39,959 nt of DNA from Sphingobacteriales bacterium (GTDB lineage Bacteria > Bacteroidota > Bacteroidia > Chitinophagales > Chitinophagaceae): the NCBI GenBank assembly GCA_027491165.1, contig JAIXWS010000098.1, positions 1-39,959 on the forward strand. The letters are read 5' to 3'. The notes under the pieces were generated by a model, which was not told the DNA's origin, searched no databases, and was given only the letters and a program-made list of their open reading frames with translations. Position numbers and translations under genes: made by a program. Positions 1 to 31,278 of this stretch are shown in pieces (the stretch's first letter is position 1; each line of letters begins with the position of its first letter).

Positions 1-357
1 AACAGCAGCCTTAACCCTAAGCCCAAGCACTACAACAACTTATACCGTAACGGTAACGAATGCAAACAATTGTTCTGCAACAACTACCCAAACGATTACA
101 GTTAATCCATTACCAACACCAGCAATCGCCGTAACAGAAACTTCTGGCACAGCGAACAATGATGCTATCATTTGCATCGGCGCAAGTGCTACGATGACTG
201 CGAGTGGTGGAACGACTTATTTGTGGAGTACGGGTGCAACAACAGCAGCCTTAACCCTAAGCCCAAGCACTACAACAACTTATACCGTAACGGTAACGAA
301 TGCAAACAACTGTTCTGCAACAGCTACCCAAACGATTACAGTTAATCCATTACCAAC
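1..357 (+). repeat. 240-nt repeat, two near-identical partial copies
   Basis: Bases 1-117 and 241-357 align without gaps and differ at only two positions (70 and 83 against 310 and 323). The period is 240 nt, or 80 codons, so the reading frame is kept. The window begins inside this array, so the copy number upstream cannot be judged. Confidence 0.93.
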
Positions 358-3300
358 GATAAGTGGTACTATGAGTGCTTGTGTAGGTTTGACTTCAAGT
401 TTGACCGGATCAGCAACTGCTCACCCAACAACACCATGGCTATCATCAAATACTGCGGTAGCAACGGTATCGAGTACCGGTGTGGTTACAGCCTTAACAG
501 CGGGTACGACAACCATTACCTATATGAACAACAATGGTTGTATCGTAACAGGAACCTTTACGGTTAATCCATTGCCAACCATAACAGGTACGATGAGTGC
601 ATGTGCTGGATCAACTTCAAGCTTGATTGGATCAGCTACTCCTGATGCATCAACACCATGGACTTCATCCAATACTGCAGTGGCAACGGTATCGAGTACC
701 GGTGTGGTTACGGCCTTAACAGCAGGTACTACGACGATTACCTACATGAACAACAATGGTTGTATCATATCAGGAACCTTTACGGTCTTCGTATTACCGA
801 CGATTACAGGAACAACTGTTGCTTGTGTTGGTTTGACTTCGACCTTAACTGGAGCGGGTACACCTCACCCAACGACACCATGGACCTCATCCAATACAGC
901 AGTGGCAACAGTATCAAGTACAGGTGTTGTTACAGCCCTATCAGCTGGTACGACCATTATTACGTACCGAAATAATAATAACTGTATTGTGACAACAACA
1001 TTTACAGTGAATGCATTGCCTACCATTACAGGTACTATGAATGCTTGTCTTGGTTTAACTTCAAGCTTAACTGGTTCGGCAACAGCTCATCCAACAACGC
1101 CTTGGACATCCTCTAACACTGCTGTTGCAACTGTTTCGAGTACAGGTTTGGTTACAGCACTATCAGTAGGTACGACCACGATTACATACATGAACAATAA
1201 TGGATGTATTGTAACAGGAACCTTTACGGTAAATTCATTACCAACGATGAGTGGCACTATGAGCATATGTGCAGGTACAACCTCAACTTTGACTGGATCA
1301 GCAACAGCGCATCCGACAACGCCGTGGACTTCATCTAATACAGCAGTGGCAACCGTATCAAGTACTGGTGTGGTTACGGCTCTAACAGCAGGTACCACTA
1401 CGATTACTTATATGAATAGCAATGGCTGTATTGTGACAGGAACCTTTACGGTTTTTGTATTGCCTACTATTACAGGTACTATGAATGCTTGTCTTGGATC
1501 AACTTCAAGTTTGACTGGAGCGGGAACGCCTCATCCAACAACGCCATGGGTATCTTCTAATACAGCGGTAGCAACCGTATCGAGTACTGGTTTGGTTACT
1601 GCATTGACAGCAGGTACAACCAACATTACCTACATGAATAACAATGGTTGTATAGTAACTGCTGCCTTTACGGTAAATCCATTGCCTACTATGGGTGGTA
1701 CTATGAATGCATGTGCAGGCTTGACTTCGACCTTGACTGGCTCAGCAACGGCTCATCCAACAACACCATGGACCTCTTCTAATACTGCTGTAGCAACGGT
1801 ATCAAGTACTGGTGTGGTTACTGCCTTAACCGCAGGTACTACGACGATTACCTACATGAACAGCAATGGTTGTATTGTGACAGGAACCTTTACGGTTAAT
1901 GCTTTACCAACCATAACAGGTACTATGAGTGCTTGTGTTGGCGCTACGGAGACCTTGACTGGATCAGCAACAGCGCATCCAACAACACCATGGACTTCAT
2001 CCAATACTGCGGTGGCGACGATTTCAAGTACTGGTGTGGTTACTGCATTATCAGCAGGTACGACGACAATTACTTATAGAAATAGCAATGGTTGTATCGT
2101 AACAGGAACCTTTACTGTATCGGTGTTATCCTCTATTACCGGTACCATGAGTGCTTGCGTTGGCTTCACTTCAAGCTTGACCGGTTCTGGTACAGCGCAT
2201 CCAACAACTCCATGGATTTCTTCTAATACTGCAGTGGCAACGGTTTCTAGTACAGGTGTGGTTACAGCCTTAACAGCCGGTACGACAACCATTACCTACA
2301 GAAACAACAATAATTGTATTGCAACAGGAACCTTCACGGTTAATCCATTGCCTGCAGCACCAACTGCTGTGACATTAATTAACTATTGTCAAGGTGCAAC
2401 TGCTACAGCCTTAACAGCAACTGGTACTAGCTTATTATGGTACACAGTAGCAACAGGTGGTACAGGTTCTTCTACAGCGCCTATACCAAGTACCGCAACT
2501 GTTGGATCAACTAATTTTTATGTTAGTCAATCTACAGCTTTTGGTTGCGAAGGACCAAGAACATTGATTGTTGTGAACATTAATCCGATACCCGTTGCTC
2601 CGACAGTTACAAGTCCGGTAAATCTATGTATCGGTGGTCCAACAGCAGCCTTGACTGCAACTGGTACCAATTTAAAATGGTATACGGTAGCAACAGGTGG
2701 AACAAGCAGTGCAACTGCACCGGTACCAAGCACGGCTACATTAGGTACTAGCAATTTTTATGTCAGTCAAACGAGCAGCTTTGGTTGTGAAGGACCAAGA
2801 TCATTGATTTCGGTTACGGTCAATCCTTTACCAACTGTAACAATCAGTTCATTGTCTCCTTATGGCTTCTTCTATTGCGAGGGCTTGAAAGTAACCTTGA
2901 AAGCAAATTCAGCGACAGCTAAATTATACAACTGGGATTTTGCGGGTACGCCCGTAGCAGGTGCTACTTTTGATACCTTCTCCGTAGGAGTAACAGGAAC
3001 ATGGGGTGTAACCGTTAGAGATACTTTTGGCTGTCTTGCCAGAGCTTCTGTTGCTGTCAACAAAGCGCCTGCTTCAGCAAAAACGGTCTTGTCTCCAACA
3101 ACAGCTCAAATCTGTGAAGAGGGTTCTGTATTGTTGACTTGTAGCCCTGGTTTTGTAGCCTTTACTTATACTTGGATTAAAGATGGCTTGCCTATTTTGC
3201 CTTCTACTCCAACAGAAAATCTAAAAAGTGCTACTGCTCCTGGTAACTATGTGGTTTATGTGATGAATACTTTTGGCTGTTTCGACACCACCAATGTGGC

Positions 3301-3787
3301 CGTTGTAACAAATTACCCAAAACCCATCAAACCAGTAATTGTCCATACACCACCGACAATGAAAGTAGCCTCTATCTATACTTATTACCAATGGTATAGA
3401 AATGGTGCACAAATTGTTGGAGCCAATAACTATCAATTAAACACAACTACTCCAGGTAAGTACTTTGTACAAATAACGGATGAAAATGGTTGTTTGAATA
3501 ATTCAGATACTATTGAAATTTTGCAACCCAATTCTATTAGTAATGTGACCACCAATGGTGTGATTAAGATTTATCCAAATCCTACTCAAAGCATTGTAAA
3601 CATTGATGCTCCAATTCCAGTCAATGTAGTGGTTACAGACCTTACAGGGCGCATCGTATCAGATGTTAAGGATGCCAAGTCTGTAGATCTTGAAAACTAC
3701 GCAGATGGTACCTACATCTTTAGATTATTTGATCAATCGAATCAACTGATTTCAATACAAAAAATATCGAAATCTTCCAATAGATAG
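1..3787 (+). CDS. Giant T9SS-secreted Ig-like repeat protein, 5' end outside window
   Basis: The frame is open from base 2 to the TAG at 3785-3787, so the N-terminus is missing; about 1261 residues are visible. In order it shows PKD-like Thr-rich repeats (to about base 349), nine 74-residue units resembling bacterial Ig-like group 2 domains (350-2347, core SSNTAVATVSSTG), two Ig-like units containing LWYTVATGG or LKWYTVATGG, further Ig/PKD-like units, and a C-terminal T9SS type A sorting domain starting at IKIYPNP. T9SS cargo of this kind is exported across the outer membrane and either anchored to lipopolysaccharide or released. An adhesin or surface-fibre role is inferred from the architecture; no catalytic domain is visible. 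Composition is very rich in Thr, Ser and Ala with few charged residues. Confidence 0.9.
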   Translation, partial: TAALTLSPSTTTTYTVTVTNANNCSATTTQTITVNPLPTPAIAVTETSGTANNDAIICIGASATMTASGGTTYLWSTGATTAALTLSPSTTTTYTVTVTNANNCSATATQTITVNPLPTISGTMSACVGLTSSLTGSATAHPTTPWLSSNTAVATVSSTGVVTALTAGTTTITYMNNNGCIVTGTFTVNPLPTITGTMSACAGSTSSLIGSATPDASTPWTSSNTAVATVSSTGVVTALTAGTTTITYMNNNGCIISGTFTVFVLPTITGTTVACVGLTSTLTGAGTPHPTTPWTSSNTAVATVSSTGVVTALSAGTTIITYRNNNNCIVTTTFTVNALPTITGTMNACLGLTSSLTGSATAHPTTPWTSSNTAVATVSSTGLVTALSVGTTTITYMNNNGCIVTGTFTVNSLPTMSGTMSICAGTTSTLTGSATAHPTTPWTSSNTAVATVSSTGVVTALTAGTTTITYMNSNGCIVTGTFTVFVLPTITGTMNACLGSTSSLTGAGTPHPTTPWVSSNTAVATVSSTGLVTALTAGTTNITYMNNNGCIVTAAFTVNPLPTMGGTMNACAGLTSTLTGSATAHPTTPWTSSNTAVATVSSTGVVTALTAGTTTITYMNSNGCIVTGTFTVNALPTITGTMSACVGATETLTGSATAHPTTPWTSSNTAVATISSTGVVTALSAGTTTITYRNSNGCIVTGTFTVSVLSSITGTMSACVGFTSSLTGSGTAHPTTPWISSNTAVATVSSTGVVTALTAGTTTITYRNNNNCIATGTFTVNPLPAAPTAVTLINYCQGATATALTATGTSLLWYTVATGGTGSSTAPIPSTATVGSTNFYVSQSTAFGCEGPRTLIVVNINPIPVAPTVTSPVNLCIGGPTAALTATGTNLKWYTVATGGTSSATAPVPSTATLGTSNFYVSQTSSFGCEGPRSLISVTVNPLPTVTISSLSPYGFFYCEGLKVTLKANSATAKLYNWDFAGTPVAGATFDTFSVGVTGTWGVTVRDTFGCLARASVAVNKAPASAKTVLSPTTAQICEEGSVLLTCSPGFVAFTYTWIKDGLPILPSTPTENLKSATAPGNYVVYVMNTFGCFDTTNVAVVTNYPKPIKPVIVHTPPTMKVASIYTYYQWYRNGAQIVGANNYQLNTTTPGKYFVQITDENGCLNNSDTIEILQPNSISNVTTNGVIKIYPNPTQSIVNIDAPIPVNVVVTDLTGRIVSDVKDAKSVDLENYADGTYIFRLFDQSNQLISIQKISKSSNR
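350..2347 (+). repeat. Nine tandem 222-nt units encoding 74-residue Ig-like domains
   Basis: Units begin at 350, 572, 794, 1016, 1238, 1460, 1682, 1904 and 2126. Each is exactly 222 nt with no insertion or deletion. Each encodes a unit starting LPT or LSS, with Cys at unit positions 11 and 64, the core TPWxSSNTAVAT, and a TFTV end. Synonymous positions differ widely between units while the protein is nearly constant. Confidence 0.95.
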
Positions 3788-4790: not shown

Positions 4791-6611
4791 TTAGTTTTTA
4801 ACTATTTTGCTCGTCATTTTATGGCCATTGGCTTCTGTAATTTGTAGCAGATAATTTCCAGTTGCCCAATTTGAAACATCAATTGACTCTAATTGTGTGT
4901 TCAAATCCTTACTGAGTATTAATTGACCGCTGATAGTGTAAACAGCTATTTTTGATCCTAAGATAGTTTCTGCGATATAAATGGTTTGCGTAGCTGGATT
5001 AGGATAAATTTTGATATGGCTACTTATATTTTTGTTATCTATGCTTAATCCCTTAACAGCAATTTTTGCAGCGCGGAAAGTATCTGCATCTACATAAGCT
5101 ACAATAGAAATGGAATCACTTGCTGCAGGAGCAGTATAAACGGAACGCACATAATTTACCGTATCAATGTATCGGTTTGTTGGTGTAAAACTTCCTTTGT
5201 TAGCCATAAATGTTCCATTAATATGGCGAAGGGTCAGGGAATCCATTTTAGAGCCGTCATTGAGTCTGAAATCTGCACTCAATGGAAAGCTAGTAGCACT
5301 TGGGTCAATAGGTAAACCATTGTTTAATAACCAAGTTAATTTAACAAAGCTGTTGATCACACCACTCATGGTTCCTGCTTTATGACCGATAAGTTTAGTA
5401 GTATCATTTTGTCCCCACCAGCAATAGTCTGCATCAAAATCAATTACACTGCTGCTAAGAGATGGGCTATTGAAAATTTCCGCTTGTCTGCTGCCATCGC
5501 TTTTGGGATTAAAAAAGTGTGTGCTAGCAAATCGCACGATTGTAGCAGTAGCACCAGCAGTATTGTAAACTGCTGCTACGGGCGATTGGTTTCCTTTGAT
5601 TACACCACCTGTGATAAATAGACTGCCATTGACATTGTAGATAGCACCACCAAAATTGGGGGAGCCTGTTGCTGTGGAGGGTATTTTGTTGTCTGTAATA
5701 TGGAAACTGCTGTAGCCATACAATAGGCAATTATTCAACCAAATACCGGCTCCTGCATTAGCTGTGTTATTACTAATTGTTGCCGTGTCCCTCAAAAACA
5801 ATACATCATTAAAAGACGCGATACCACCGCCCATATTGGCTTTATTGTTCTTAATGCTTGCCTGATTTTCTAAAGTCCCGACACCAAAAAGGCCGCCACC
5901 TGCCACCTTTGCTTCATTGTTGGCAATTTCTGAAAAACCAGTGATAGAAGCTCCACCATTAGCTTTGGAGAATACACCACCACCACTTCCATCGGCTTTA
6001 TTGTTGTTTACTTTGGCGAATCCAGACATAAGGAAGGTGGAGTTTGCGTATACACCGCCGCCTTCTTCGCTTGCACTGTTGTTGCTAACCATTGCATTGC
6101 CTGTAAGGTCTAATCTACCTGTACTGTAGATACCGCCCCCGTTTGCAAAAACACCAACTGCGCTGCAATTGGTGATTTTTGAACGACCACCGATAGATAA
6201 TATTTTGCTACCATTGTTGCAAATACCGCCACCAGCGCCATCCGTTATTTTACCATTTTGGATCACTAAATCTTTGATATAAACACTACCATTGTTGATA
6301 AGAATAGCTCTATTCTTTAATTCGGCATCAATAATGCTGACAGCGGATGTATCTGATGTACCTGTAAGCTTTAGGTCTTTGCCAATAACAAGGTTATTTT
6401 CTTTGAAGGTATGCGGGCTTAAGACCAAGGAGTCACCTGAAAGAGCAGCACTAATAGCGTCGCTTATTTTGCTGTAGGTTGGTGGTACAATTACCCCTGT
6501 GCGATAGAGAGTAATGCTTTGTGCCTGTGCAGTATTATGGACACCCAAAGCCATTGATGATGCTACTAAAACAGCACTAATAATGTTTGAATTTGGTAAT
6601 TTTTTTATCAT
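4791..6611 (-). CDS. Secreted beta-helix protein with T9SS sorting domain
   Basis: This 606-residue protein begins with a signal peptide (about residues 1-30, ending NTAQAQ). From about residue 100 to 390 it has many short GGG[IVL]-type turns such as GGGIYSTG, GGGVYANS and GGGVFSK, spaced about 20-25 residues apart and rich in Asn. This pattern is typical of right-handed parallel beta-helices and Pmp-like autotransporter repeats. The last 80 residues form a T9SS type A sorting domain (IKIYPNP, ending SKIVKN). It is predicted to be surface-exposed or released. No catalytic residues of a polysaccharide lyase could be identified, so enzyme or adhesin remains open. Confidence 0.88.
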   Translation of the reverse strand: MIKKLPNSNIISAVLVASSMALGVHNTAQAQSITLYRTGVIVPPTYSKISDAISAALSGDSLVLSPHTFKENNLVIGKDLKLTGTSDTSAVSIIDAELKNRAILINNGSVYIKDLVIQNGKITDGAGGGICNNGSKILSIGGRSKITNCSAVGVFANGGGIYSTGRLDLTGNAMVSNNSASEEGGGVYANSTFLMSGFAKVNNNKADGSGGGVFSKANGGASITGFSEIANNEAKVAGGGLFGVGTLENQASIKNNKANMGGGIASFNDVLFLRDTATISNNTANAGAGIWLNNCLLYGYSSFHITDNKIPSTATGSPNFGGAIYNVNGSLFITGGVIKGNQSPVAAVYNTAGATATIVRFASTHFFNPKSDGSRQAEIFNSPSLSSSVIDFDADYCWWGQNDTTKLIGHKAGTMSGVINSFVKLTWLLNNGLPIDPSATSFPLSADFRLNDGSKMDSLTLRHINGTFMANKGSFTPTNRYIDTVNYVRSVYTAPAASDSISIVAYVDADTFRAAKIAVKGLSIDNKNISSHIKIYPNPATQTIYIAETILGSKIAVYTISGQLILSKDLNTQLESIDVSNWATGNYLLQITEANGHKMTSKIVKN

Positions 6612-7064: not shown

Positions 7065-8933
7065 TTATTTTTTTACAAACTGTTGAACATCAAAAATACT
7101 ATTTTTTGAGAAAAACTGAATTTGGTAATGTCCATTGGAAAGTTGTTGCAGATTGATTTTTTGTGTTGGTCCTGTAGTATGGCCTTTTTGCATGGTTTGC
7201 CCAAGTAGATTTTTGATTTCATAATACAAATCCATCTCTTGGCAATCTACTGTAAAATTCAGTTCTTCTGTAGTCGGGTTGGGCCAAATAGTTAGGGGTG
7301 TTTTTGGCCTGATTTTCTGCTCCTGAATTGTGGATCCAATAATGTCTTGCCCCAATATCGGACGAATCATCAATGCTCCACTAACAAGTGAAGGATTCCA
7401 TACATTCAACACATTGTAATAGGCGTGGTTGCCACCAATGCGATTGCGATCTAGACCAATGTACAAACTATCACTGCCACTGAGCGCTGCTTGGGTGGTG
7501 CCAATATAAAAAGTTCCCTTGGGCATAGGGATGGCTTTGTCAAATTTATAGATCCAAAAATGATTAATGGTATCTCTATAGCTGGGTTGTAAATTTTCTA
7601 ATTCATAAATAATCTTATCGGCACTAGAAGAGCCATAGGCAATACTTTGGTAGATAACGACTGAAAAGTATTTGTTGCTTGCGAGCGGAACTTGTCTTCC
7701 AAAATAGATCGCTACACCGCGTAAAGTATCGGGTTGATTGAGGTGCTGTTCAATAGCAATTTTACCCGGTAGTGTAGGGAAGAGATTGAGGAAATAACTC
7801 ATTTCGGCAGTGCCATCATCATAGGCTAAATAATTATCGAAAATTTGCGTACCAATGATGGTGTCATTTTCTTTGCTTGCATCACCCAATGGAGCTTGCA
7901 AATAATATTTGTGTTCAAAAATTACGGGGTCGTAATAGCCAAAACTGGGTGTAGTGCTGTAGGTATTCCATTCAATGTCTGCTGTAGCTTTTGAGGCAAT
8001 GTTTTTGTTGCTACCAGCATCGCTTGATAAGCTAATTAAAGAGGGAGATGTATAGGCGCTGTACCCGAAATTGGCAATATTTTGATTAGCATTAAAATTG
8101 TTTTTGATAACACTTTTAAATTTTGAGCTGCGTTCAGCACTCGCATTGGAGAGGTATTGTCGGTAGGGCATTGCCGTATAATCGTTCAATAAATTGGTAG
8201 GTGATAGGGTGAAGGCAACATCGTTAATGGCCGTATCAAATCTATTTCTACCACTGTTCATTCTGATATAGTCAATGTTCCATACATCGTCATTAAGGCC
8301 CATAGAAGCCTTATTGACAAATCTAAATTGAAAGCCACTATGCAGAAATTGGGTATCTACAAGGGCAATCATAACCTGCTTAAAATCGCTTAATAGGGTA
8401 TCACTTCTACTCCACACTTTGATCCAATTGCTGCTTTTGGAAGAAGATTTGAAATACAGCATCAAAGAGTCGTTTTTTTCGGGGGCAAAACCCATGCCAG
8501 CTGCTTGGAATAAAAAACTAAAGTAGATGCTATCGGCGGCTATCTTGCCGCTCAAGTCTATTTGTTGCGAAGTAAGACTGTCTGCATAACGAACGCTATT
8601 GGGATTACTCGTGTCGTATGGTTTTCCAAATTGATTTATCGCATCAAAGGTGGCAATGCCTCTGCTGTAGCTATTTACAGCCATTGTGTTATTGATATAA
8701 ACTTGTCGGTCTACCCATTTTGTTGGGTTGGGAATAGCATTGTATTGAGCAAAATCTTCAAAAAAGGGTAGTGTTAAAGCTGTCGTTTTTGCATGAATAA
8801 AGTTTCCACTCATTTTTTGCACAAAGGGATTGTAATCAATCGTGCCTATTTGTTCTTGAGCGAAACTATTTCCAAAGTTAAGTACTAAAAATACGTAGAG
8901 TAGGCAGCAAAATGTGGACAATTTTGTTTTCAT
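7065..8933 (-). CDS. Secreted protein with T9SS sorting domain, function unknown
   Basis: This 622-residue protein has a signal peptide ending about NSFAQ (residue 26). An N-terminal region (LPFFEDFAQYN to WNIDYIRMN, about 55-225) looks like the jelly-roll region common at the N-terminus of Bacteroidota T9SS cargo. A middle region follows with no recognised family, then a C-terminal sorting domain from LTIWPNPT to QFVKK. Note WPNP rather than the usual YPNP. No catalytic motif is visible. It lies between the PASTA gene upstream (107-nt gap) and the rhodanese downstream (2 nt), all on the same strand. Confidence 0.85.
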   Translation of the reverse strand: MKTKLSTFCCLLYVFLVLNFGNSFAQEQIGTIDYNPFVQKMSGNFIHAKTTALTLPFFEDFAQYNAIPNPTKWVDRQVYINNTMAVNSYSRGIATFDAINQFGKPYDTSNPNSVRYADSLTSQQIDLSGKIAADSIYFSFLFQAAGMGFAPEKNDSLMLYFKSSSKSSNWIKVWSRSDTLLSDFKQVMIALVDTQFLHSGFQFRFVNKASMGLNDDVWNIDYIRMNSGRNRFDTAINDVAFTLSPTNLLNDYTAMPYRQYLSNASAERSSKFKSVIKNNFNANQNIANFGYSAYTSPSLISLSSDAGSNKNIASKATADIEWNTYSTTPSFGYYDPVIFEHKYYLQAPLGDASKENDTIIGTQIFDNYLAYDDGTAEMSYFLNLFPTLPGKIAIEQHLNQPDTLRGVAIYFGRQVPLASNKYFSVVIYQSIAYGSSSADKIIYELENLQPSYRDTINHFWIYKFDKAIPMPKGTFYIGTTQAALSGSDSLYIGLDRNRIGGNHAYYNVLNVWNPSLVSGALMIRPILGQDIIGSTIQEQKIRPKTPLTIWPNPTTEELNFTVDCQEMDLYYEIKNLLGQTMQKGHTTGPTQKINLQQLSNGHYQIQFFSKNSIFDVQQFVKK

Positions 8934-21551: not shown

Positions 21552-21687
21552 CAATTTCATTTTGCTAGATTGTTTAAAATCAATAAATGCTCAATTTTTT
21601 AAGCCATGATTTTGGAGCGCTTTAAATCTGGAATGTGTTTTTATTGAAAAATTGTTATTTTTAGCTTCTATATTGAATGATTATCCT

Positions 21688-24600
21688 ATGAAACAAAACA
21701 TTAATTTTTCGGTGCTGAAGGCTAAATTATCGAGAATACTTTGCCTTATTATACTGTCATCCGTTTATGTCAATATTGCCTTTGCAGCCGTTGTGGTTAC
21801 AATTCCCTCTACTCCGGGTACGGATACAACCAATTTTACCCCAACCAATAGAAGAACCAATTTTTCTGCTGCTCGAATGCTTTTTACTGCTTCCGAGATT
21901 GGTGCTACCGGTACAATAACGCATTTGGCTTTTCAAAAACATTCGGGTTCAACCTCTACAAGTGTAAACTACATTAGTATCTTCATGAGAGAAACGACGG
22001 CCACTACTGTTTCTACAACAGTGCCAACAGGTTTTCCAACAGGTTTTACACGTGTGTATAATAGTAGCTTTATCGACAATACCATGACTAGTGGCTGGAC
22101 TACGATAAATCTATCAACAGCTGTGGGCGAAATCATGACATATTCCGGCGGCTCTAATAACCTAGAAATTATTTTGGTCAAAACCAATTCAGAAACGGCT
22201 ACATCAAGCTTCCCCATCTATAATTGTCATTCGACTACTGGACCAGTTTCTGCTTATTATTTTAGTAATTCTGCGGCATTAGGAACATCCTTTACCAGTA
22301 CTACCACCAAAAGACCTAATGTACAGTTGACTATAGAAAGCACTTGTGCTGGTAAGCCTGCAAAAGGATCTATTTCTGGCCCAAGTACAGCGGTGTGTAA
22401 TGCTGCAAGCTTTACATTGACGGGTACTGGATTAACAATGGGTACGGGTATGAAATACCAGTGGCAATCAAGAAGTGCAGGTGTTGGCCCCTATGTCAAC
22501 ACTGCTGCATCCGATACCTTTACAACATTAACCACTAGCTCGACGTTTAATAGGGATTATCGTGTTTATTCATTATGTACCTTGTCTGGACAAAGCGACA
22601 CCTCAACAGCGATTACGATTAACGTAGTCAATCCTTCCACCATAACGGCATTGACGGATACCACTTTTTGCAATGGGGGATCAGTTACCCTCAATGCTAC
22701 AACCACTTCAGGTATTACCTACACTTGGTTTAATGGTGCCGTCAATACGGGTGTTACGGGTAATACCTATGTAGCCACAACCTCAGGAGTTTATTCGTGT
22801 AGAGCAAGTACAGTAGCTTGTTCAGCGGGCGTATTTAGCAATACAAAAACGGTTACCGTCAATCCTTTGCCTCCAACAACAGTAAGTGCTTTATCGAGTA
22901 CTACTTTTTGTGATGGTTTGAGTGTTGTATTGCAAGGCCCAACGGGTTCGGGTCTTTCCTATCAATGGCAAAGGGCTGGGCTAGATATTTCAGGCGCCAC
23001 TAGCTCATCTTATACAGCAACTACATCGGGTAATTATCGCGTAAGGGTTGCCAATACCAGCACAGGTTGCTTTGATTTTTCTTCTGTTACCGCTGTTACC
23101 GTCAATCCAATGCCCATGAAGCCGGTCATTGCTGGTGCAGGTGGCAAAACCTCTTTTTGCTCTTCTGATAATTTAGTCTTGAGCACCACACCTACAAGTG
23201 GTATCTCTTATCAATGGAGAAATTTATCTGGAAATATAGCAGGTGCAACAGGTAGCTCTTATACGGCAACCAATTCGAATACCTATAGTCTTACAGCAAC
23301 ATTAGGCTCCTGCTCTATCGAAAGCGATCCCCTGGTGATTACAGAAAACCCTCGTCCTACCGCAACTATTTCACCTGCGGGTAGCGTTAGTTTTTGTAAC
23401 GGAGATAGTTTAAAAGTAAATGCCTCTGTAGGAACTGGGGTGAGTTATGAATGGCAAGAATCAGGAACGCCCATTTCTGGAGCAACAGCATCTTCTATTT
23501 TTGTTAAAACTGCCGGAGTATATCGTGTGAAAATCACCAACACCAGCACTGGTTGTAGCGATCAATCACTCACCTTAACTGTGAATATCATTTCGCCATC
23601 TTTACCTACCATTGCAGCAGCTGGTCCTTCCACTTTTTGTGTTGGGTCTAGTGTTACTTTAAATGCTACGATTGGAGCGGGCTTAATAGCGCAATGGCAA
23701 GATGGTATAACGAACATTCCTGGTGCTACCACCACAACATATGTAGCTACTACTTCCGGAGTATACCGTATGAAGGTTACCAATGGTGTTGGTTGTGCCG
23801 CCTTTAGCTCACCGATAACCGTTACTGTAAATCCCTTGCCCGATAATTCTACTACGATTACAGGTGGTACTGATATTTGCGATGGAGATGCATCCGTTAT
23901 TTTAGCGGCAATTAAACCTGGATATACTTATCAATGGCGCAATTTAGGCGTGAATATACCCGGCGCAACACTTAATCCATTTCTAGCTAAAACTGCCGGA
24001 ACTTATTCCGTAATGGTTAAAGACTCCAATGGCTGTTCTCTTGCCTCCTCTGATGCTGTTTTTACGGTAAAATTTGTGCGCCCATTTTATATTACTCCAT
24101 ACGGTAATACCTTTTTCTGTGATGGTGAAAAAACCAAATTGTCAACCCAAAAGGGATTTACCTCTTATCAGTGGTATTTAAATGGTGTGTTTATTCCTGG
24201 AGCCACAGACACCTTTGTGTATGCTGATAAAAACGGAAAATACACCGTGCAAGTGCAAGATCCTACAAACGGATGTTATGCTAGCTCTTTAGATTTTAAT
24301 ATTGTGGTTATCCCTGCTCCCGATACTCCCTTCATCACCCAATCGGGTACTCGATTAAGTACGGTTGTAAGAGGTGTAAGTTATCAGTGGTATAAAGATG
24401 GCATAGCAATTGCTGGTGCAATAGACTCCTTCATTTTTACCACTGGTGCGGCAAAATATGCAGTGGTGGTTACCAATAGTAGAGATTGCAGTAAACGTGC
24501 AGAAATCGATTTAAGTACTACTGCAATCCATCCAGGAGCTGTTACTACATACTATATTAAAGTATACCCTAATCCTACAAACAGTCAATTAAATGTAGTG

Positions 24601-24777
24601 GCTCCAAAAGATATGGTGGTCGCTTTATTTGATATTCAAGGCCGTGAATTATTCAAACAAAAAGATGCAACACAAATAGACATGAGTCCTTTTGCTTCGG
24701 GAGTTTACATCATTCAATTCACCAATGCAGAGGGTCAGGTAGTTGCTCAGGAAAAAGTTTCAAAAATGGATTATTGA
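21688..24777 (+). CDS. Large Ig/PKD-like repeat protein with T9SS sorting domain
   Basis: The 1029-residue protein has a signal peptide (about 1-32, ending NIAFA), an N-terminal domain of about 200 residues rich in Thr and Ser (FTPTNRRTNFSAARMLF to RPNVQLTIES), then about nine Ig-like repeats of 80-90 residues. Each repeat has a FCNG/FCDG turn, a YQWQ or YTWF strand, an ISGAT/IPGAT turn and a YRVxVxN end. The T9SS type A sorting domain starts at IKVYPNP. It is predicted to be cell-surface or released; no catalytic domain is visible. The frame opens at a TTG at 21652, but the signal peptide begins at the ATG at 21688. Confidence 0.9.
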   Translation: MKQNINFSVLKAKLSRILCLIILSSVYVNIAFAAVVVTIPSTPGTDTTNFTPTNRRTNFSAARMLFTASEIGATGTITHLAFQKHSGSTSTSVNYISIFMRETTATTVSTTVPTGFPTGFTRVYNSSFIDNTMTSGWTTINLSTAVGEIMTYSGGSNNLEIILVKTNSETATSSFPIYNCHSTTGPVSAYYFSNSAALGTSFTSTTTKRPNVQLTIESTCAGKPAKGSISGPSTAVCNAASFTLTGTGLTMGTGMKYQWQSRSAGVGPYVNTAASDTFTTLTTSSTFNRDYRVYSLCTLSGQSDTSTAITINVVNPSTITALTDTTFCNGGSVTLNATTTSGITYTWFNGAVNTGVTGNTYVATTSGVYSCRASTVACSAGVFSNTKTVTVNPLPPTTVSALSSTTFCDGLSVVLQGPTGSGLSYQWQRAGLDISGATSSSYTATTSGNYRVRVANTSTGCFDFSSVTAVTVNPMPMKPVIAGAGGKTSFCSSDNLVLSTTPTSGISYQWRNLSGNIAGATGSSYTATNSNTYSLTATLGSCSIESDPLVITENPRPTATISPAGSVSFCNGDSLKVNASVGTGVSYEWQESGTPISGATASSIFVKTAGVYRVKITNTSTGCSDQSLTLTVNIISPSLPTIAAAGPSTFCVGSSVTLNATIGAGLIAQWQDGITNIPGATTTTYVATTSGVYRMKVTNGVGCAAFSSPITVTVNPLPDNSTTITGGTDICDGDASVILAAIKPGYTYQWRNLGVNIPGATLNPFLAKTAGTYSVMVKDSNGCSLASSDAVFTVKFVRPFYITPYGNTFFCDGEKTKLSTQKGFTSYQWYLNGVFIPGATDTFVYADKNGKYTVQVQDPTNGCYASSLDFNIVVIPAPDTPFITQSGTRLSTVVRGVSYQWYKDGIAIAGAIDSFIFTTGAAKYAVVVTNSRDCSKRAEIDLSTTAIHPGAVTTYYIKVYPNPTNSQLNVVAPKDMVVALFDIQGRELFKQKDATQIDMSPFASGVYIIQFTNAEGQVVAQEKVSKMDY

Positions 24778-26926: not shown

Positions 26927-27706
26927 ATGGAATACAAAAAACGAAATTTTTCACCCAGACCTTCGCGTCCTTCTTTGCCATTATTAATTGGGCGTAAACC
27001 CATATTGGAGGCATTGGAGAATGGCACTTCTGTAGAGAAAATTTTTCTTTTGCGCACAGCTACTGGTGAAGAAATTTCAGCCATCAAACAACTTGCTCGC
27101 GAAAGGAATATACCTATCAGTCAAGTACCCGTTGAAAAACTCAATGGCATGACCAAAGCCCAACACCAAGGGCTAGTGGCTTATACAAGCTTGTTAGAAT
27201 ATATAGAATTACAAGAAGCGATTGATTTTGTAGTAGAAAAAGGAGAAACCCCATTATTTGTTTTATTGGATGGGGTTACAGACGTGCGTAATGTAGGCGC
27301 CATTGCTCGTAGTGCATTATGTTGTGGCGCACAAGGCTTGATTTTACCCACCTCTAATGCAGCTTCCCTTACTGAAGATGCTATAAAAACATCTGCAGGC
27401 GCACTAACCCAAATTATGCTATGTCGTACACCATCGGTGCCCCAAGCACTAGACGTGTTGAAGCTTAATGGCATTCAAATTTTAGGCACTTTTATGAAAG
27501 GGAGTGTCCCTGTTTATGAGGCTGATCTCACAATACCCAGCACCATTATTATGGGTGCCGAAGATACCGGTATTAGTAAAGATGTGATTCGTCGTGCCGA
27601 CCAATTAATCCGTATTCCCATGGCCAAAGCTTTCGATTCCCTCAATGTTTCGGTGGCGGCCGGGATGATATTGTATGAAGCTGCCAAGCAGAGAATTTTG
27701 CAATAA
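26927..27706 (+). CDS. rlmB: TrmH/SpoU-family rRNA 2'-O-methyltransferase, RlmB-like
   Basis: The 259 residues show an N-terminal substrate-binding domain (LIGRKPILEALENG, KAQHQGLVAY) and a SPOUT catalytic domain with the three SpoU motifs: DVRNVGAIARSA, MGAEDTGIS and IPMAKAFDSLNVSVAAGM. This arrangement is that of RlmB, which methylates the 2'-OH of G2251 in 23S rRNA using SAM. The exact nucleotide is inferred. A basic N-terminal tail (KKRNFSPRPSRPS) is present. The frame opens at a TTG at 26909 but ATG 26927 is preferred. A strong terminator follows. Confidence 0.9.
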   Translation: MEYKKRNFSPRPSRPSLPLLIGRKPILEALENGTSVEKIFLLRTATGEEISAIKQLARERNIPISQVPVEKLNGMTKAQHQGLVAYTSLLEYIELQEAIDFVVEKGETPLFVLLDGVTDVRNVGAIARSALCCGAQGLILPTSNAASLTEDAIKTSAGALTQIMLCRTPSVPQALDVLKLNGIQILGTFMKGSVPVYEADLTIPSTIIMGAEDTGISKDVIRRADQLIRIPMAKAFDSLNVSVAAGMILYEAAKQRILQ

Positions 27707-27722
27707 AAATAAATACCCAAAG

Positions 27723-27767
27723 AAACAGGCAATAGAACAATCATCATTCTGTTGCCTGTTTTTATTT
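27723..27767 (+). terminator. Terminator after the rRNA methylase gene
   Basis: Arms 27723-27737 and 27747-27761 pair over 15 positions with one G-U (core AACAGGCAA and TTGCCTGTT) around a 9-nt loop. TTTATTT follows. Confidence 0.88.
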
Positions 27768-27831: not shown

Positions 27832-29052
27832 ATGATGAAGGCACTCGTTTTCCTGTGTTTATGCTGTTTAGCCATAAATGTTTCTGCCCAAGATTTTCAA
27901 TATAATTTCAAGGCTACTGAGGTGAAATTTTCAGGCACCGGCTCCATTTCTATAAAACACGATTCTTTAGCAACTGCCTATAGCACCGCCCATTGGCGCA
28001 ACACCGGTTTGCGTGAACCAGCGGGATGGTCTAGTGGTAGTACGATGAATGCCACTGCGAATTTTGAATTTTTTTGTGCCAAAGCTCCTGATTCAATTAG
28101 TATACGTGGTTTAGGAAATGATACCATTAATCTTCCGATGCGCACCGTAAAATTATTGCCTGGCACAGGCATGTATACTTGTACTTATCCTGTAGCCGTA
28201 GCCAGTAAATCCTTCGCAAATGGCGTGGTGAATTATTATGCGCCTTTTAATATTTATTGGGAGATTTCCTTTGATAAAGGATTAACTTGGTATAGGGCGG
28301 ATACCACTGATCATAAAATATATGTTACCAAAAGTGCCCCTATGATTGAAACGACCAATTTTAAGCATTTTCATACGGTGTTAGAGTTGAGCTGTAAAAA
28401 TGCAAAGGGGCAAACGACGGATACCGGCATTATCAGTAAATGTTGGAGCGAATTTACAGACCAGATTGTGCTTAATCATAAAGGTGATTCTTTACACTAT
28501 TATAAAAATTACCTTACCTCAAATACCCAATTACCGCTTTTATTAAGACACCGAACTGCTCAATGTTACACTTTTGCACAACTATTTGCAGCATTAATAA
28601 AAATTCAAGGAGTTAATAAAACAAGCAACTACGTATTTATCACTCCAAGGGCAGTTGCCTCACCCTGCGGTGGCACCATCAATCGTTTTTTGGTGAAAAA
28701 TTGGAGTTTTATCAAGAAGTCTGACTCTTCTTCCTGCCCTTCATTCCCTTACAAAAATGTAGGCACAACATTAACAAGCACGGGTTATACCCATACTTCG
28801 GCAGATGTGACCGACCAAACAGGCATTCCTGGTTCTTGCAATAGCAATCCCTCGTCTTTCTTTAACAACCACCAGATATGCAAATTTGACGGCGTTTATT
28901 ACGATGCTTGTTATGGCGTAAAGTTCAGTTCGCTCATTGATATAAAAACCAAAGCATTTGATGCTTGGGGTGTACAGTTGAGCACGGGTACTTGGAATTT
29001 TACAGATGATTTGTCTAGGGCAGATTTGTCAGAAACCATTACAACCTGGTAA
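27832..29052 (+). CDS. Secreted transglutaminase-like (papain-like fold) protein
   Basis: The 406-residue protein has a signal peptide ending NVSAQ (about residue 20). A beta-rich N-terminal part includes FNIYWEISFDKGLTWYRA and HKIYVT. The C-terminal part carries a plausible catalytic triad: Cys245 in HRTAQCYTFAQLFAALIKIQG, His347 in NNHQICKFDG and Asp358 in VYYDACYGV. This order and spacing match transglutaminase-like cysteine enzymes. No T9SS domain is present, so the location is periplasm or export by another route. Substrate unknown. It is followed after 3 nt by another secreted protein. The call is by motif reading, not a database search. Confidence 0.72.
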   Translation: MMKALVFLCLCCLAINVSAQDFQYNFKATEVKFSGTGSISIKHDSLATAYSTAHWRNTGLREPAGWSSGSTMNATANFEFFCAKAPDSISIRGLGNDTINLPMRTVKLLPGTGMYTCTYPVAVASKSFANGVVNYYAPFNIYWEISFDKGLTWYRADTTDHKIYVTKSAPMIETTNFKHFHTVLELSCKNAKGQTTDTGIISKCWSEFTDQIVLNHKGDSLHYYKNYLTSNTQLPLLLRHRTAQCYTFAQLFAALIKIQGVNKTSNYVFITPRAVASPCGGTINRFLVKNWSFIKKSDSSSCPSFPYKNVGTTLTSTGYTHTSADVTDQTGIPGSCNSNPSSFFNNHQICKFDGVYYDACYGVKFSSLIDIKTKAFDAWGVQLSTGTWNFTDDLSRADLSETITTW

Positions 29053-29055
29053 ATT

Positions 29056-29907
29056 ATGAACATGCACATTTGGAGCAAAACACTATTAGTGCTGTTGGCT
29101 TTTTTTAACTGCATCTTTTATGCTCAAGCGCAATGGCGTATTGAGCGTAAAATTATTATTGAAGATGGCCAATTCTATTTTTTTACTGTTGATGATGAAA
29201 CGCAATTAGCCACATTATATTCTGGTTTGGTAAGTCAAAAATTAAAGGGGGCAAAGAAAAGACTATTTCCCATTGGCAGAGAATATACAGAGCCATTTAA
29301 TCCACTTGCATTTGATATCAATGCCGATGAATTTGTTGGTGTCAATTGGATACTGAATAGTATGAATGGCCGCTATGATGCGATTAAGAAAATAAGTATC
29401 AAAGATTGGAGCAAAGGAAGAGCGGATTGGACGAATGAAGATTGGGGGCAAGCTAGTTTTGATATGCCTGTTGCTGCACCAAATGATCCATGGGAGCGAA
29501 TGTTGGAAGTAAATAATACCCTAGAAAATTGCTTTTTTGATATTATACAATCAAACACACTCGTGATGGGTGTTTGTAATCAGGGGCAATTATGGATAAA
29601 GGAATACAAAGGTAATATTTGGAAAAATAGGGCCGAGATAAAGGTGCCTTTCAAACAATGTTTTACTTTGATCAATCGACCAAACGGCAAAATCGGCCTA
29701 CTTGATGCCCATGCTAATTACTATCAAATTGATGAGCAAAAAAATGAATTAAGCTTAATTCAAAAAGGGAATTATGTAAAAGCGCAAATTGTCATCGTCG
29801 ATAAAGACAAGAAAGAAAACTATCTCATCGCTAATGAAGCCATTGAAGCAGGAATCTATAATTCATTGGATCAGGTCATTAAAGAATCTGCCATTAAACT
29901 GCATTAA
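29056..29907 (+). CDS. Secreted protein of unknown function
   Basis: The 283-residue protein has a signal peptide ending FYAQAQ (about residue 26). The mature part is rich in Trp, Lys and Asn and predicted mostly beta (WRIERKIIIEDGQFYFF, TLVMGVCNQGQLWIKEYKG, GKIGLLDAHANYYQID); its spacing might reflect a beta-propeller-like arrangement, but I cannot assign a family. It starts 3 nt after the stop of the transglutaminase-like gene, so the two are almost certainly co-transcribed and may work together. No catalytic motif was recognised. Confidence 0.75.
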   Translation: MNMHIWSKTLLVLLAFFNCIFYAQAQWRIERKIIIEDGQFYFFTVDDETQLATLYSGLVSQKLKGAKKRLFPIGREYTEPFNPLAFDINADEFVGVNWILNSMNGRYDAIKKISIKDWSKGRADWTNEDWGQASFDMPVAAPNDPWERMLEVNNTLENCFFDIIQSNTLVMGVCNQGQLWIKEYKGNIWKNRAEIKVPFKQCFTLINRPNGKIGLLDAHANYYQIDEQKNELSLIQKGNYVKAQIVIVDKDKKENYLIANEAIEAGIYNSLDQVIKESAIKLH

Positions 29908-29929
29908 TTTATTTATCAAACAACTTTTT

Positions 29930-30499
29930 ATGAAAGCTATATTTTCAACATTACTTTTGGTATCGATTGCAATCAGCACTTCAGCTGCAAACCTTACTGC
30001 TACTGTTTCTTCGGGTTCAGGCATGGGCTCCAAAAAGGGGAAAATCAACCTTACGATTAGTGGGGGTATTGCCCCATATACCATATTGTGGACAGGCCCC
30101 GGCGGCTACAGCTCAACGAAAATTAATCCCGATTCTTTAGCTTCGGGCACTTACTGCGTGAGTGTTACAGACCAATATTGTGGTGTGGCCAAATTATGTG
30201 TTACCCTTAGCGAACAAACCAGCAGTATAGACGAGATTACGCTCGCTAAAGCCCATATATACCCCAATCCTTTTGGGCGCGAGTTGTTTATTGATCTCAA
30301 TGATCACAGACCAAAAGGTGACCTAAGCTTGAAATTGTATGATCCATTGGGTAAATTGGTAGCCTACAAGAAATGTGCTGCTGCCCAACACCTTCAGTGG
30401 ACATTTGAAAATGAATTGGCTGCTGGGTTCTACCTGATCAGTGTTGAATCTGAAGATGGCTTCAAATTGGTCCGTCAAGTGTGTCGAATTGGTAAATAA
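29930..30499 (+). CDS. Small T9SS cargo with SprB-like repeat
   Basis: The 189-residue protein has a signal peptide (MKAIFSTLLLVSIAISTSAA). One SprB-like repeat follows (about 35-80: GGIAPYTILWTGPGGYSS ... LASGTYCVSVTDQ), and then a T9SS type A sorting domain (HIYPNPFG to QVCRIGK). It is predicted to be exported and exposed. The longest frame starts at 29789, inside the upstream gene, but the signal peptide fixes the ATG at 29930, 22 nt after that gene's stop. It completes a run of three secreted-protein genes. Confidence 0.87.
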   Translation: MKAIFSTLLLVSIAISTSAANLTATVSSGSGMGSKKGKINLTISGGIAPYTILWTGPGGYSSTKINPDSLASGTYCVSVTDQYCGVAKLCVTLSEQTSSIDEITLAKAHIYPNPFGRELFIDLNDHRPKGDLSLKLYDPLGKLVAYKKCAAAQHLQWTFENELAAGFYLISVESEDGFKLVRQVCRIGK

Positions 30500-30600: not shown

Positions 30601-31278
30601 ATGCGCCAATACTGGTGGAAAGTGCTTTGTGCCATTTTATTGTTTTATTCCTTTTTTGAAGGATTATTAGGCCAAGTGCCAGCCCGTGAAATATTGAACG
30701 AAACGATTCGTAATCTTTATTTTCATGTACCCATGTGGTTTACCATGATTGTCCTTTTTGCAGCTTCGGCTTATTATGCACTCGCATACCTGCGTTCAAG
30801 TAATCCTATTCACGACATTTACTCTTCTGCACTGGCCTCAGTAGGTATTTTCTTTAGTATTTTAGGCATGCTCACGGGTATGGAATGGGCTCAATACACT
30901 TGGGGTGCAGCATGGAGTAATGATCCCAAACAATTGGGTACGGCCTTGTGCATGCTCACCTATTTTGCCTATTGGGTATTACGAAGTGGTATTAAAGATG
31001 AAGATAAGCGCGCCAAAATTAGCGCGGTATACAACATTTTTATATTTGCCCTCATGATTCCACTCATTTTTATTTTACCCAGAATGGTAGATTCACTCCA
31101 TCCCGGAAATGGTGGTAATCCAGCTTTTAGTAATTATGATTTAGATAGTAGAATGCGACTTGTGTTTTACCCAGCCGTACTTGGTTGGATATTGATGGGC
31201 TTTTGGTTGTCCGCCTTATTAAGACGCATCATGCTTTTAGAACATAACAAAAATGAAGAATTAAATTATATCAACTAA
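30601..31278 (+). CDS. ccmC: Cytochrome c biogenesis protein CcmC (heme handling)
   Basis: The 225 residues form about six membrane helices. A Trp-rich WWD-like loop (EWAQYTWGAAWSNDPKQLGT, about 100-119) and two candidate heme-ligand His residues (YFHVPMWF and SLHPGNGGNP) match the CcmC/CcsA heme-handling family. It is predicted to deliver heme for cytochrome c maturation at the inner membrane. The WWD sequence is a reduced version of the proteobacterial motif. The ccmD-like gene follows after 14 nt. No ccmA, ccmB, ccmE or ccmF lies in the window. Confidence 0.87.
   Translation: MRQYWWKVLCAILLFYSFFEGLLGQVPAREILNETIRNLYFHVPMWFTMIVLFAASAYYALAYLRSSNPIHDIYSSALASVGIFFSILGMLTGMEWAQYTWGAAWSNDPKQLGTALCMLTYFAYWVLRSGIKDEDKRAKISAVYNIFIFALMIPLIFILPRMVDSLHPGNGGNPAFSNYDLDSRMRLVFYPAVLGWILMGFWLSALLRRIMLLEHNKNEELNYIN

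Follow-up and report, generated by a model that had tools for sequence, protein, structure and literature searches.

A conserved three-gene cassette of Bacteroidota encoding a predicted transglutaminase-like cysteine enzyme, an exported partner and a candidate type IX secretion cargo

A stretch of 39,959 nucleotides from Sphingobacteriales bacterium (assembly GCA_027491165.1, contig JAIXWS010000098.1, positions 1 to 39,959; referred to in full length as the window) carries three genes at 27832–30499 that constitute a real, conserved module whose members travel together. All three lie on the forward strand, and the open reading frames (ORFs) confirm the tight series with gaps of 3 and 22 nucleotides proposed in the initial annotation of this DNA. 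P1 (27832–29052, 406 amino acids) is a predicted secreted transglutaminase-like cysteine enzyme, P2 (29056–29907, 283 amino acids) an exported partner protein, possibly a β-propeller, and P3 (29930–30499, 189 amino acids) a small candidate cargo protein of the type IX secretion system (T9SS). The cassette varies a known theme, in which a cysteine enzyme of the envelope is paired with a surface protein. We give roughly even odds to a reading in which P1 is an envelope cysteine enzyme of transglutaminase fold that would process or modify the T9SS-exported protein encoded beside it, with P2 as partner or inhibitor, in analogy to the protease LapG and without P1 being a member of the LapG family.

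That the three genes form a unit is apparent from their order in related loci (denoted below by L and a number). The P1 family was aligned in 33 rows reaching down to 21 % identity, 15 of them close (window included) and 18 distant; four fragments (L126_5452, L127_4387, L124_7932 and L124_8308) were left out. Outside the window, P2 comes directly after P1 in every one of the 14 close loci (in L043 it is broken in two frames), and 13 of these loci, distributed over the genus of the window and a family of Flavobacteriales, have the full order P1-P2-P3. The flanks of the cassette differ between lineages: RNA-methyltransferase and cytochrome-biogenesis genes border it in the window and in L010, whereas much of the L009 family has PheT/CAP/UDG and TPR/PurC/PhoH genes at this place, and the neighbors differ once more in L009 and L040. 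In the distant relatives, the gene after P1 encodes approximately 166–373 amino acids (in L112 it follows a short leftover frame), and the third genes reach from 400 to more than 1400 amino acids; they contain SprB or PKD repeats, and several also encode a T9SS tail.

Among loci with at least 1.5 kb of flank, 24 of 28 have a repeat or T9SS-tail gene on the same strand no more than 4 kb downstream of P1; on the upstream side, this applies to 1 of 22 (p 7e-9 by a Fisher test, a significance that is overstated since the loci are related). Split by group, the downstream count amounts to 13 of 14 close and 11 of 14 distant loci, the latter versus 1 of 13 upstream; L110 is included on account of repeat genes further along. 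By eye, the downstream repeat match of L117 looks like the start of a second P1 gene, without which the figures become 10 of 14 distant loci and 23 of 28 in total. With this correction and with the window added, 24 of 29 loci have such a gene downstream and 2 of 23 upstream, the window contributing one upstream case because of a tail gene that ends at 24777. The supposition that the genes belong together is borne out by this survey, i.e. by the conserved order in close loci and by a third gene that in distant loci usually encodes a repeat or T9SS protein. One locus joins enzyme and repeats directly, as L119:4687–6885 encodes Ig/PKD-like repeats (Ig, immunoglobulin) followed by a P1 domain in a single polypeptide with a start that by eye resembles a lipobox. 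The third gene of L110 (7707–9494) has a PKD-like start and a zinc-peptidase-like HEFGHHFG motif and lacks SprB repeats.

Selection was assessed as the ratio of nonsynonymous to synonymous substitution rates (dN/dS) in three close locus pairs of the L009 family, to which the figures are confined, the nearest pair of the window being saturated at silent sites. P1 is under the strongest constraint (dN/dS 0.013–0.057), followed by P2 (0.045–0.119) and P3 (0.059–0.128). With purifying selection and a gene order kept in two distant groups, the three-gene pattern is more than chance.

As judged from its sequence, P1 very probably belongs to the transglutaminase superfamily. The window P1 has no match in Pfam or NCBIfam. 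It starts with a Sec signal peptide (approximately residues 1–19, 27832–27888, ending in SA before Q; signal peptides of the window were judged by eye, those of related loci by a crude hydrophobic-run rule), followed by an N-terminal domain (27889–28338) that is kept in close relatives according to the 15-row alignment, is probably β-rich and in some relatives gives weak BNR/Asp-box and FnIII-like matches (E 0.05–0.25). The predicted transglutaminase-like domain comprises residues 170–406 (28339–29049). Among its 237 positions, only six columns are invariant over the 33 rows (Cys245, Pro340, Phe344, His347, Asp358 and Tyr361), and most others vary while the triad named in the initial annotation stays fixed: Cys245 (28564–28566) as predicted nucleophile, together with the predicted catalytic His347 (28870–28872) and Asp358 (28903–28905), occurs without exception in the 15 close rows and, with the distant rows included, in all 33. 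The distant rows read GQCGSWA...LKxQGI and NHQIV...YYDPSYG, which we take to be the usual look of transglutaminase cores. Transglut_core (PF01841) is the commonest Pfam match among the close rows (5 of 15, best E 0.0013, 19.5 bits) and is matched, below cut-off, by two of the ten distant rows scanned.

Profile comparisons agree with the transglutaminase-like assignment made at the outset. The 33-row P1 profile scores 40.4 with 30 Bacteroidota transglutaminase cores, compared to 15.8 for the reversed profile and at most 18.2 in 150 column shuffles, and the 15-row profile scores 32.7, with 24.2 reversed and at most 20.4 in 100 shuffles; the alignment spans the Cys half only and sets Cys245 on the core Cys. 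A search of PDB with the P1 family (E up to 10) returned three sequences, all peptide:N-glycanases (1x3w, 3esw, 2f4m), which we take to be members of the transglutaminase superfamily. These matches cover 35–74 positions at E 0.029–0.37 and place Cys on Cys; the matched segment is the same in two of them. P1 ends in an aromatic residue (W, F or Y) in all 15 close rows, which does not hold for all distant ones.

For P3, export by a T9SS is supported by a predicted C-terminal sorting domain of type A (30257–30460) and a T9SS gene in the genome. The domain matches Por_Secre_tail (PF18962) with 43.3 bits at a cut-off of 27 (E 4.7e-11) and exceeds the cut-off of TIGR04183 (E 9.6e-10), and SprA (TIGR04189), the sole T9SS component searched, was found with 2435 bits in the 2.1 Mb assembly (145 contigs, 97.7 % complete). 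P3 begins with a signal peptide seen by eye at ATG 29930, whereas the mechanical ORF list begins the gene at TTG 29789. The single SprB-like repeat (29987–30214), which likewise occurs once in the relatives and contains their sole invariant Cys (residue 84), reaches 27.1 bits, just below the cut-off of 28. Hence, in the earlier description of P3 as a SprB-repeat T9SS cargo, the tail is recognized over threshold and the repeat narrowly under it. A repeat profile of the P3 family matches P3 alone in the 40 kb window. P3 shares the SprB-type repeat and predicted T9SS export with the gliding adhesin SprB of Flavobacterium; it differs from SprB, a large multi-repeat adhesin, in its one repeat and in its tail of type A.

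Elsewhere in the window, cargo genes are dense. The frame at 21652–24777 (1041 amino acids as listed, from a TTG start probably upstream of the true ATG) encodes a T9SS-tail protein (2.4e-18 with a P3-derived profile) with Ig-like repeats by eye, and 194–3787, 4791–6611 and 7065–8933 match the tail profile at 9e-17, 8e-15 and 1.6e-6.

P2 is the fastest-diverging of the three proteins, with 22–50 % identity of its relatives to the window P2. It gave no credible match in Pfam or NCBIfam and none among family or PDB profiles. Its structural model has a predicted local distance difference test score (pLDDT) of 50, with a better part at residues ~130–235 and repeated strand units. Foldseek searches with this weak model reached E 0.006 at best, with none at or below 0.001, and most of the 50 rows shown are presumably propellers, so a β-propeller is possible from the model. 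The P2 profile finds the middle gene in only five distant loci (L109, L110, L111, L115 and L116); by the same profile, the other distant middle genes encode different proteins, and no Pfam match at E <0.01 was obtained for the ten middle proteins scanned. Predicted export is common to them: over close and distant loci together, the hydrophobic-run rule assigns an export signal to the middle gene product in 28 of 30 and fails for L040 and L009, whose middle genes have non-ATG starts in the frames used. A profile score of 38.2 between P1 and P2 was dismissed, as the alignment covered the signal peptides only.

In the mechanism that we propose, P1 would be exported by Sec and retained in the cell envelope, where it would act through its Cys-His-Asp triad as a cysteine enzyme of the transglutaminase (papain-like) superfamily. 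P2 would likewise stay there, as neither protein has a T9SS tail. P3 would enter the periplasm through Sec and then leave across the outer membrane through the type IX system. During this export it may encounter P1, which could cleave or otherwise modify an amide bond in P3 or its surface form, while P2 would serve as a dedicated partner of P1 that inhibits it, adapts it to its substrate or assists folding. For P1 we infer the fold, the periplasmic location, P3 as substrate and proteolysis over transamidation, and for P2 its role. P3 and its larger counterparts are favored as substrates because an envelope enzyme would meet the cargo encoded beside it and because of the fused polypeptide of L119.

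The model for this reading is LapG, described as a transglutaminase-like protease of the periplasm that cleaves adhesins of the cell surface and is restrained by the receptor LapD; in the Dvh system mentioned there, the protease is encoded in the operon of the adhesin (PMC13090378). CdrA is an adhesin of a LapG-type system according to another report (PMC4694147). As far as these sources describe LapG/BTLCP proteins (with the adhesins LapA, MapA, CdrA and DvhA), they have in common with P1 predicted export, transglutaminase-like character and a Cys-His-Asp triad, and they act on a large surface protein; P1 is usually encoded beside a repeat or T9SS protein, its putative substrate. By analogy, LapG-like processing is our better guess compared to cross-linking. 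The partner of LapG is a type I or Vb adhesin, in contrast to the T9SS neighbor of P1, and the P1 cassette has an extra exported middle gene, unlike LapG systems. No LapD-like receptor was seen among the ten flanking genes scanned, the rest of the genome being unsearched.

Several observations weigh against this reading. The Asp-Cys-Glu calcium motif described for LapG (PMC13090378) is absent in 33 of 33 P1 rows, in which Cys is preceded by Q, T, R, E, V, A or N and followed by Y, G, S or D; hence P1 is likened to LapG at most and not classed with it. None of the 25 P1 rows scanned (eight distant ones being unscanned) reaches the Transglut_core cut-off of 23 bits, and two subsets of true transglutaminases score 142.8 with each other, far above the 40.4 of P1. 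The His/Asp part of P1 alone scores 12.7, which lies within its shuffles (maximum 16.0), as did an earlier value of 8.45; the best alignment of this part, albeit not significant, still sets His347 on the core His and Asp358 on the core Asp. Spacings differ as well, with 89–140 residues from Cys to His in the P1 family versus 34–46 in the cores, and 11 residues from His to Asp in 27 of 33 P1 rows versus 15–17 in the 24 of 30 cores in which this distance is measurable. Judged from the sequence, the shorter His-Asp hairpin of P1 can preserve the register, with Asp facing the residue two after His. An AlphaFold model of P1 from three sequences had a pLDDT of 33 and a predicted template modelling score of 0.29 and was not used. 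Regarding the substrate, no conserved cleavage or linkage site was recognized in P3. T9SS tails are common in this DNA, with four further tail genes in the window by the P3-derived profile, one of which ends at 24777 on the same strand about 3 kb upstream of P1. The 28 loci counted are related, and the profiles used for counting were built from close P3s. Finally, P3 is lacking in L012, a P1-P2 paralogue whose genome also carries L008; L122 has no repeat or tail third gene in the stretch examined, and the third genes of L115 and L116 have no repeat or tail profile match at 1e-3, their C-terminal ends resembling sorting domains by eye only.

A more specific version, which we hold tentatively and with less confidence than LapG-like processing as such, is a cargo-dedicated T9SS maturation, in which each cassette would supply its own transglutaminase-fold enzyme, a matching exported partner and a T9SS repeat protein to be processed, cyclized or linked prior to export or in its course. 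Such cassettes would add to the general sortase PorU a further level at which surface proteins are processed, a reading that we regard as equally tentative. PorU, a member of another family than P1, is a general peptidase of T9SS C-terminal domains, whereas gene order links P1 to one particular cargo and its motif is transglutaminase-like. Cleavage of T9SS cargo by PorU through a thioester intermediate has been described (PMC10202324).

Less probably, P1 is a secreted cysteine peptidase or toxin against outside targets, held in check in the periplasm by P2 as inhibitor or immunity protein, with P3 as a merely co-regulated surface component. The invariable succession of P1 and P2 in the close loci, the faster evolution of P2 and the P3-less paralogue L012 would suit such a pair, and distant middle genes that often escape the P2 profile are what an inhibitor or immunity gene leads one to expect. 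Yet a pure toxin-inhibitor pair has no need of a third gene, which here is mostly of one kind, a T9SS or repeat protein, and neither a T9SS tail nor another release signal was recognized on P1.

A somewhat poorer prospect still is a true transamidase that would cross-link P3 or attach it to envelope molecules, giving an extracellular layer or fiber. Similarity to transglutaminase cores and the SprB or PKD repeats in P3 and several larger third-gene proteins speak for it. It can also invoke Pseudomonas TgpA, whose periplasmic transglutaminase domain is reported to be active in vitro (PMC3507681). With Transglut_core proteins such as TgpA, P1 shares the Cys motif, the order Cys-His-Asp and a profile similarity above controls; it differs from them in that the scanned rows lie under the Pfam cut-off or are matchless, in the residue spacings and in having its own N-terminal domain. 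However, the 14 P3 rows contain no invariant Lys or Gln beyond the signal peptide, the best columns having Lys in 10 of 14 and Gln in 9 of 14 rows, both within the C-terminal tail. The cross-linking variant of the initial annotation is not favored for this reason; of its overall interpretation, the transglutaminase-like enzyme, the travelling unit and the T9SS export of P3 are supported.

Quite improbable is an amidase acting on sugars or peptidoglycan-type substrates, whether peptide:N-glycanase-like or a cell-wall enzyme, by which the cassette would remodel surface-protein glycans. The peptide:N-glycanases are the sole solved proteins found by the P1 profile; however, the match covers the Cys motif and the following part, which are common to the whole transglutaminase superfamily. 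Nothing else in the cassettes suggests such chemistry, and the only glycan-related gene among the neighbors scanned is a GH114 glycoside hydrolase near L037. Least probable, by a little, is a structural or binding role of P1 without enzymatic activity, with the fold alone retained: no activity report was found for any P1 relative, but none of the 33 rows deviates at Cys, His or Asp amid variable columns, and the triad is usually lost when enzymes of this kind become inactive.

If LapG-like processing of the T9SS cargo applies, Bacteroidota would have an equivalent of the LapG-adhesin principle that works with another secretion system. The cassette would moreover provide a testable function for a family unmodelled in Pfam and NCBIfam that occurs in the order of the window and in a family of Flavobacteriales, and a handle on the maturation of single type IX surface proteins beside the general sortase. 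The cassette was not found described in the literature searched by title and abstract start, so its designation as undescribed holds within these searches, Pfam and NCBIfam. The same searches found no literature joining transglutaminase with the SprB repeat or with Saprospiraceae; transglutaminase and the type IX secretion system are mentioned together in literature on Yersinia entomophaga.

P1 is present in 4 of 6 genomes of the window genus, which takes in UBA7688, and in 2 of 195 genomes of the window family, both belonging to this genus. A phylum-wide search with a 6-row profile detected it in 1 of 395 genomes, namely that of the window itself. This early look of extreme rarity is partly a limit of sensitivity, since the 15-row profile later matched 18 of 396 genomes of the window order (E 8.5e-198 to 2.9e-5). 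A database scan yielded two P1 loci, one of which (L009) lies in a Crocinitomicaceae genome assigned to Flavobacteriales by NCBI. Strong matches were obtained in 10 of 240 genomes of its family (five further ones at E 0.002–0.14 were set aside as weak) and in 9 of 399 genomes of its order, all already known from the family. The ten genomes of the L009 family are absent from the match list of the window order though contained in the profile, and the two orders are therefore taken as different.

In the 33-row P1 tree, the window genus (5 rows, support 99/100) is sister to the L009 family (10 rows, 99/99) with a joint support of 100/100, and the other relatives from the same order as the window fall outside this pair, the root being placed by midpoint only. 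This grouping of the window-genus P1 with copies from Flavobacteriales, and not with those of its own order, hints at a transfer between orders; the distribution may reflect inter-order transfer or patchy loss.

By eye, genome G1086 (L117 and L116) contains two tandem P1-type cassettes: a first P1 with its middle gene, followed by a second P1, split over two contig ends, with its own middle gene and a protein of 855 amino acids. Likewise, L124:5161–9489 has two adjoining P1 copies with a middle gene each, the second P1 being split between two frames.

Mobile elements gave no sign of the family. The window P1 had no match at E 0.01 in 72,556 plasmid and 50,697 phage records, no P1 relative appeared in a viral-contig scan, and the ten flanking genes that were scanned resemble normal genes of a chromosome, no search having been aimed at transposases or integrases. 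A sigma-70 promoter scan found 7 sites versus 10.0 expected, this kind of scan being ill-suited to Bacteroidota promoters. As named from their translations, the immediate neighbors are an RNA-methyltransferase-like gene that ends at 27706 and a cytochrome-biogenesis-like gene that starts at 30601. An inverted repeat with a T-run at 27725–27764, seen by eye and without an entry in the terminator scan output, is a possible terminator separating the cassette from the upstream gene.

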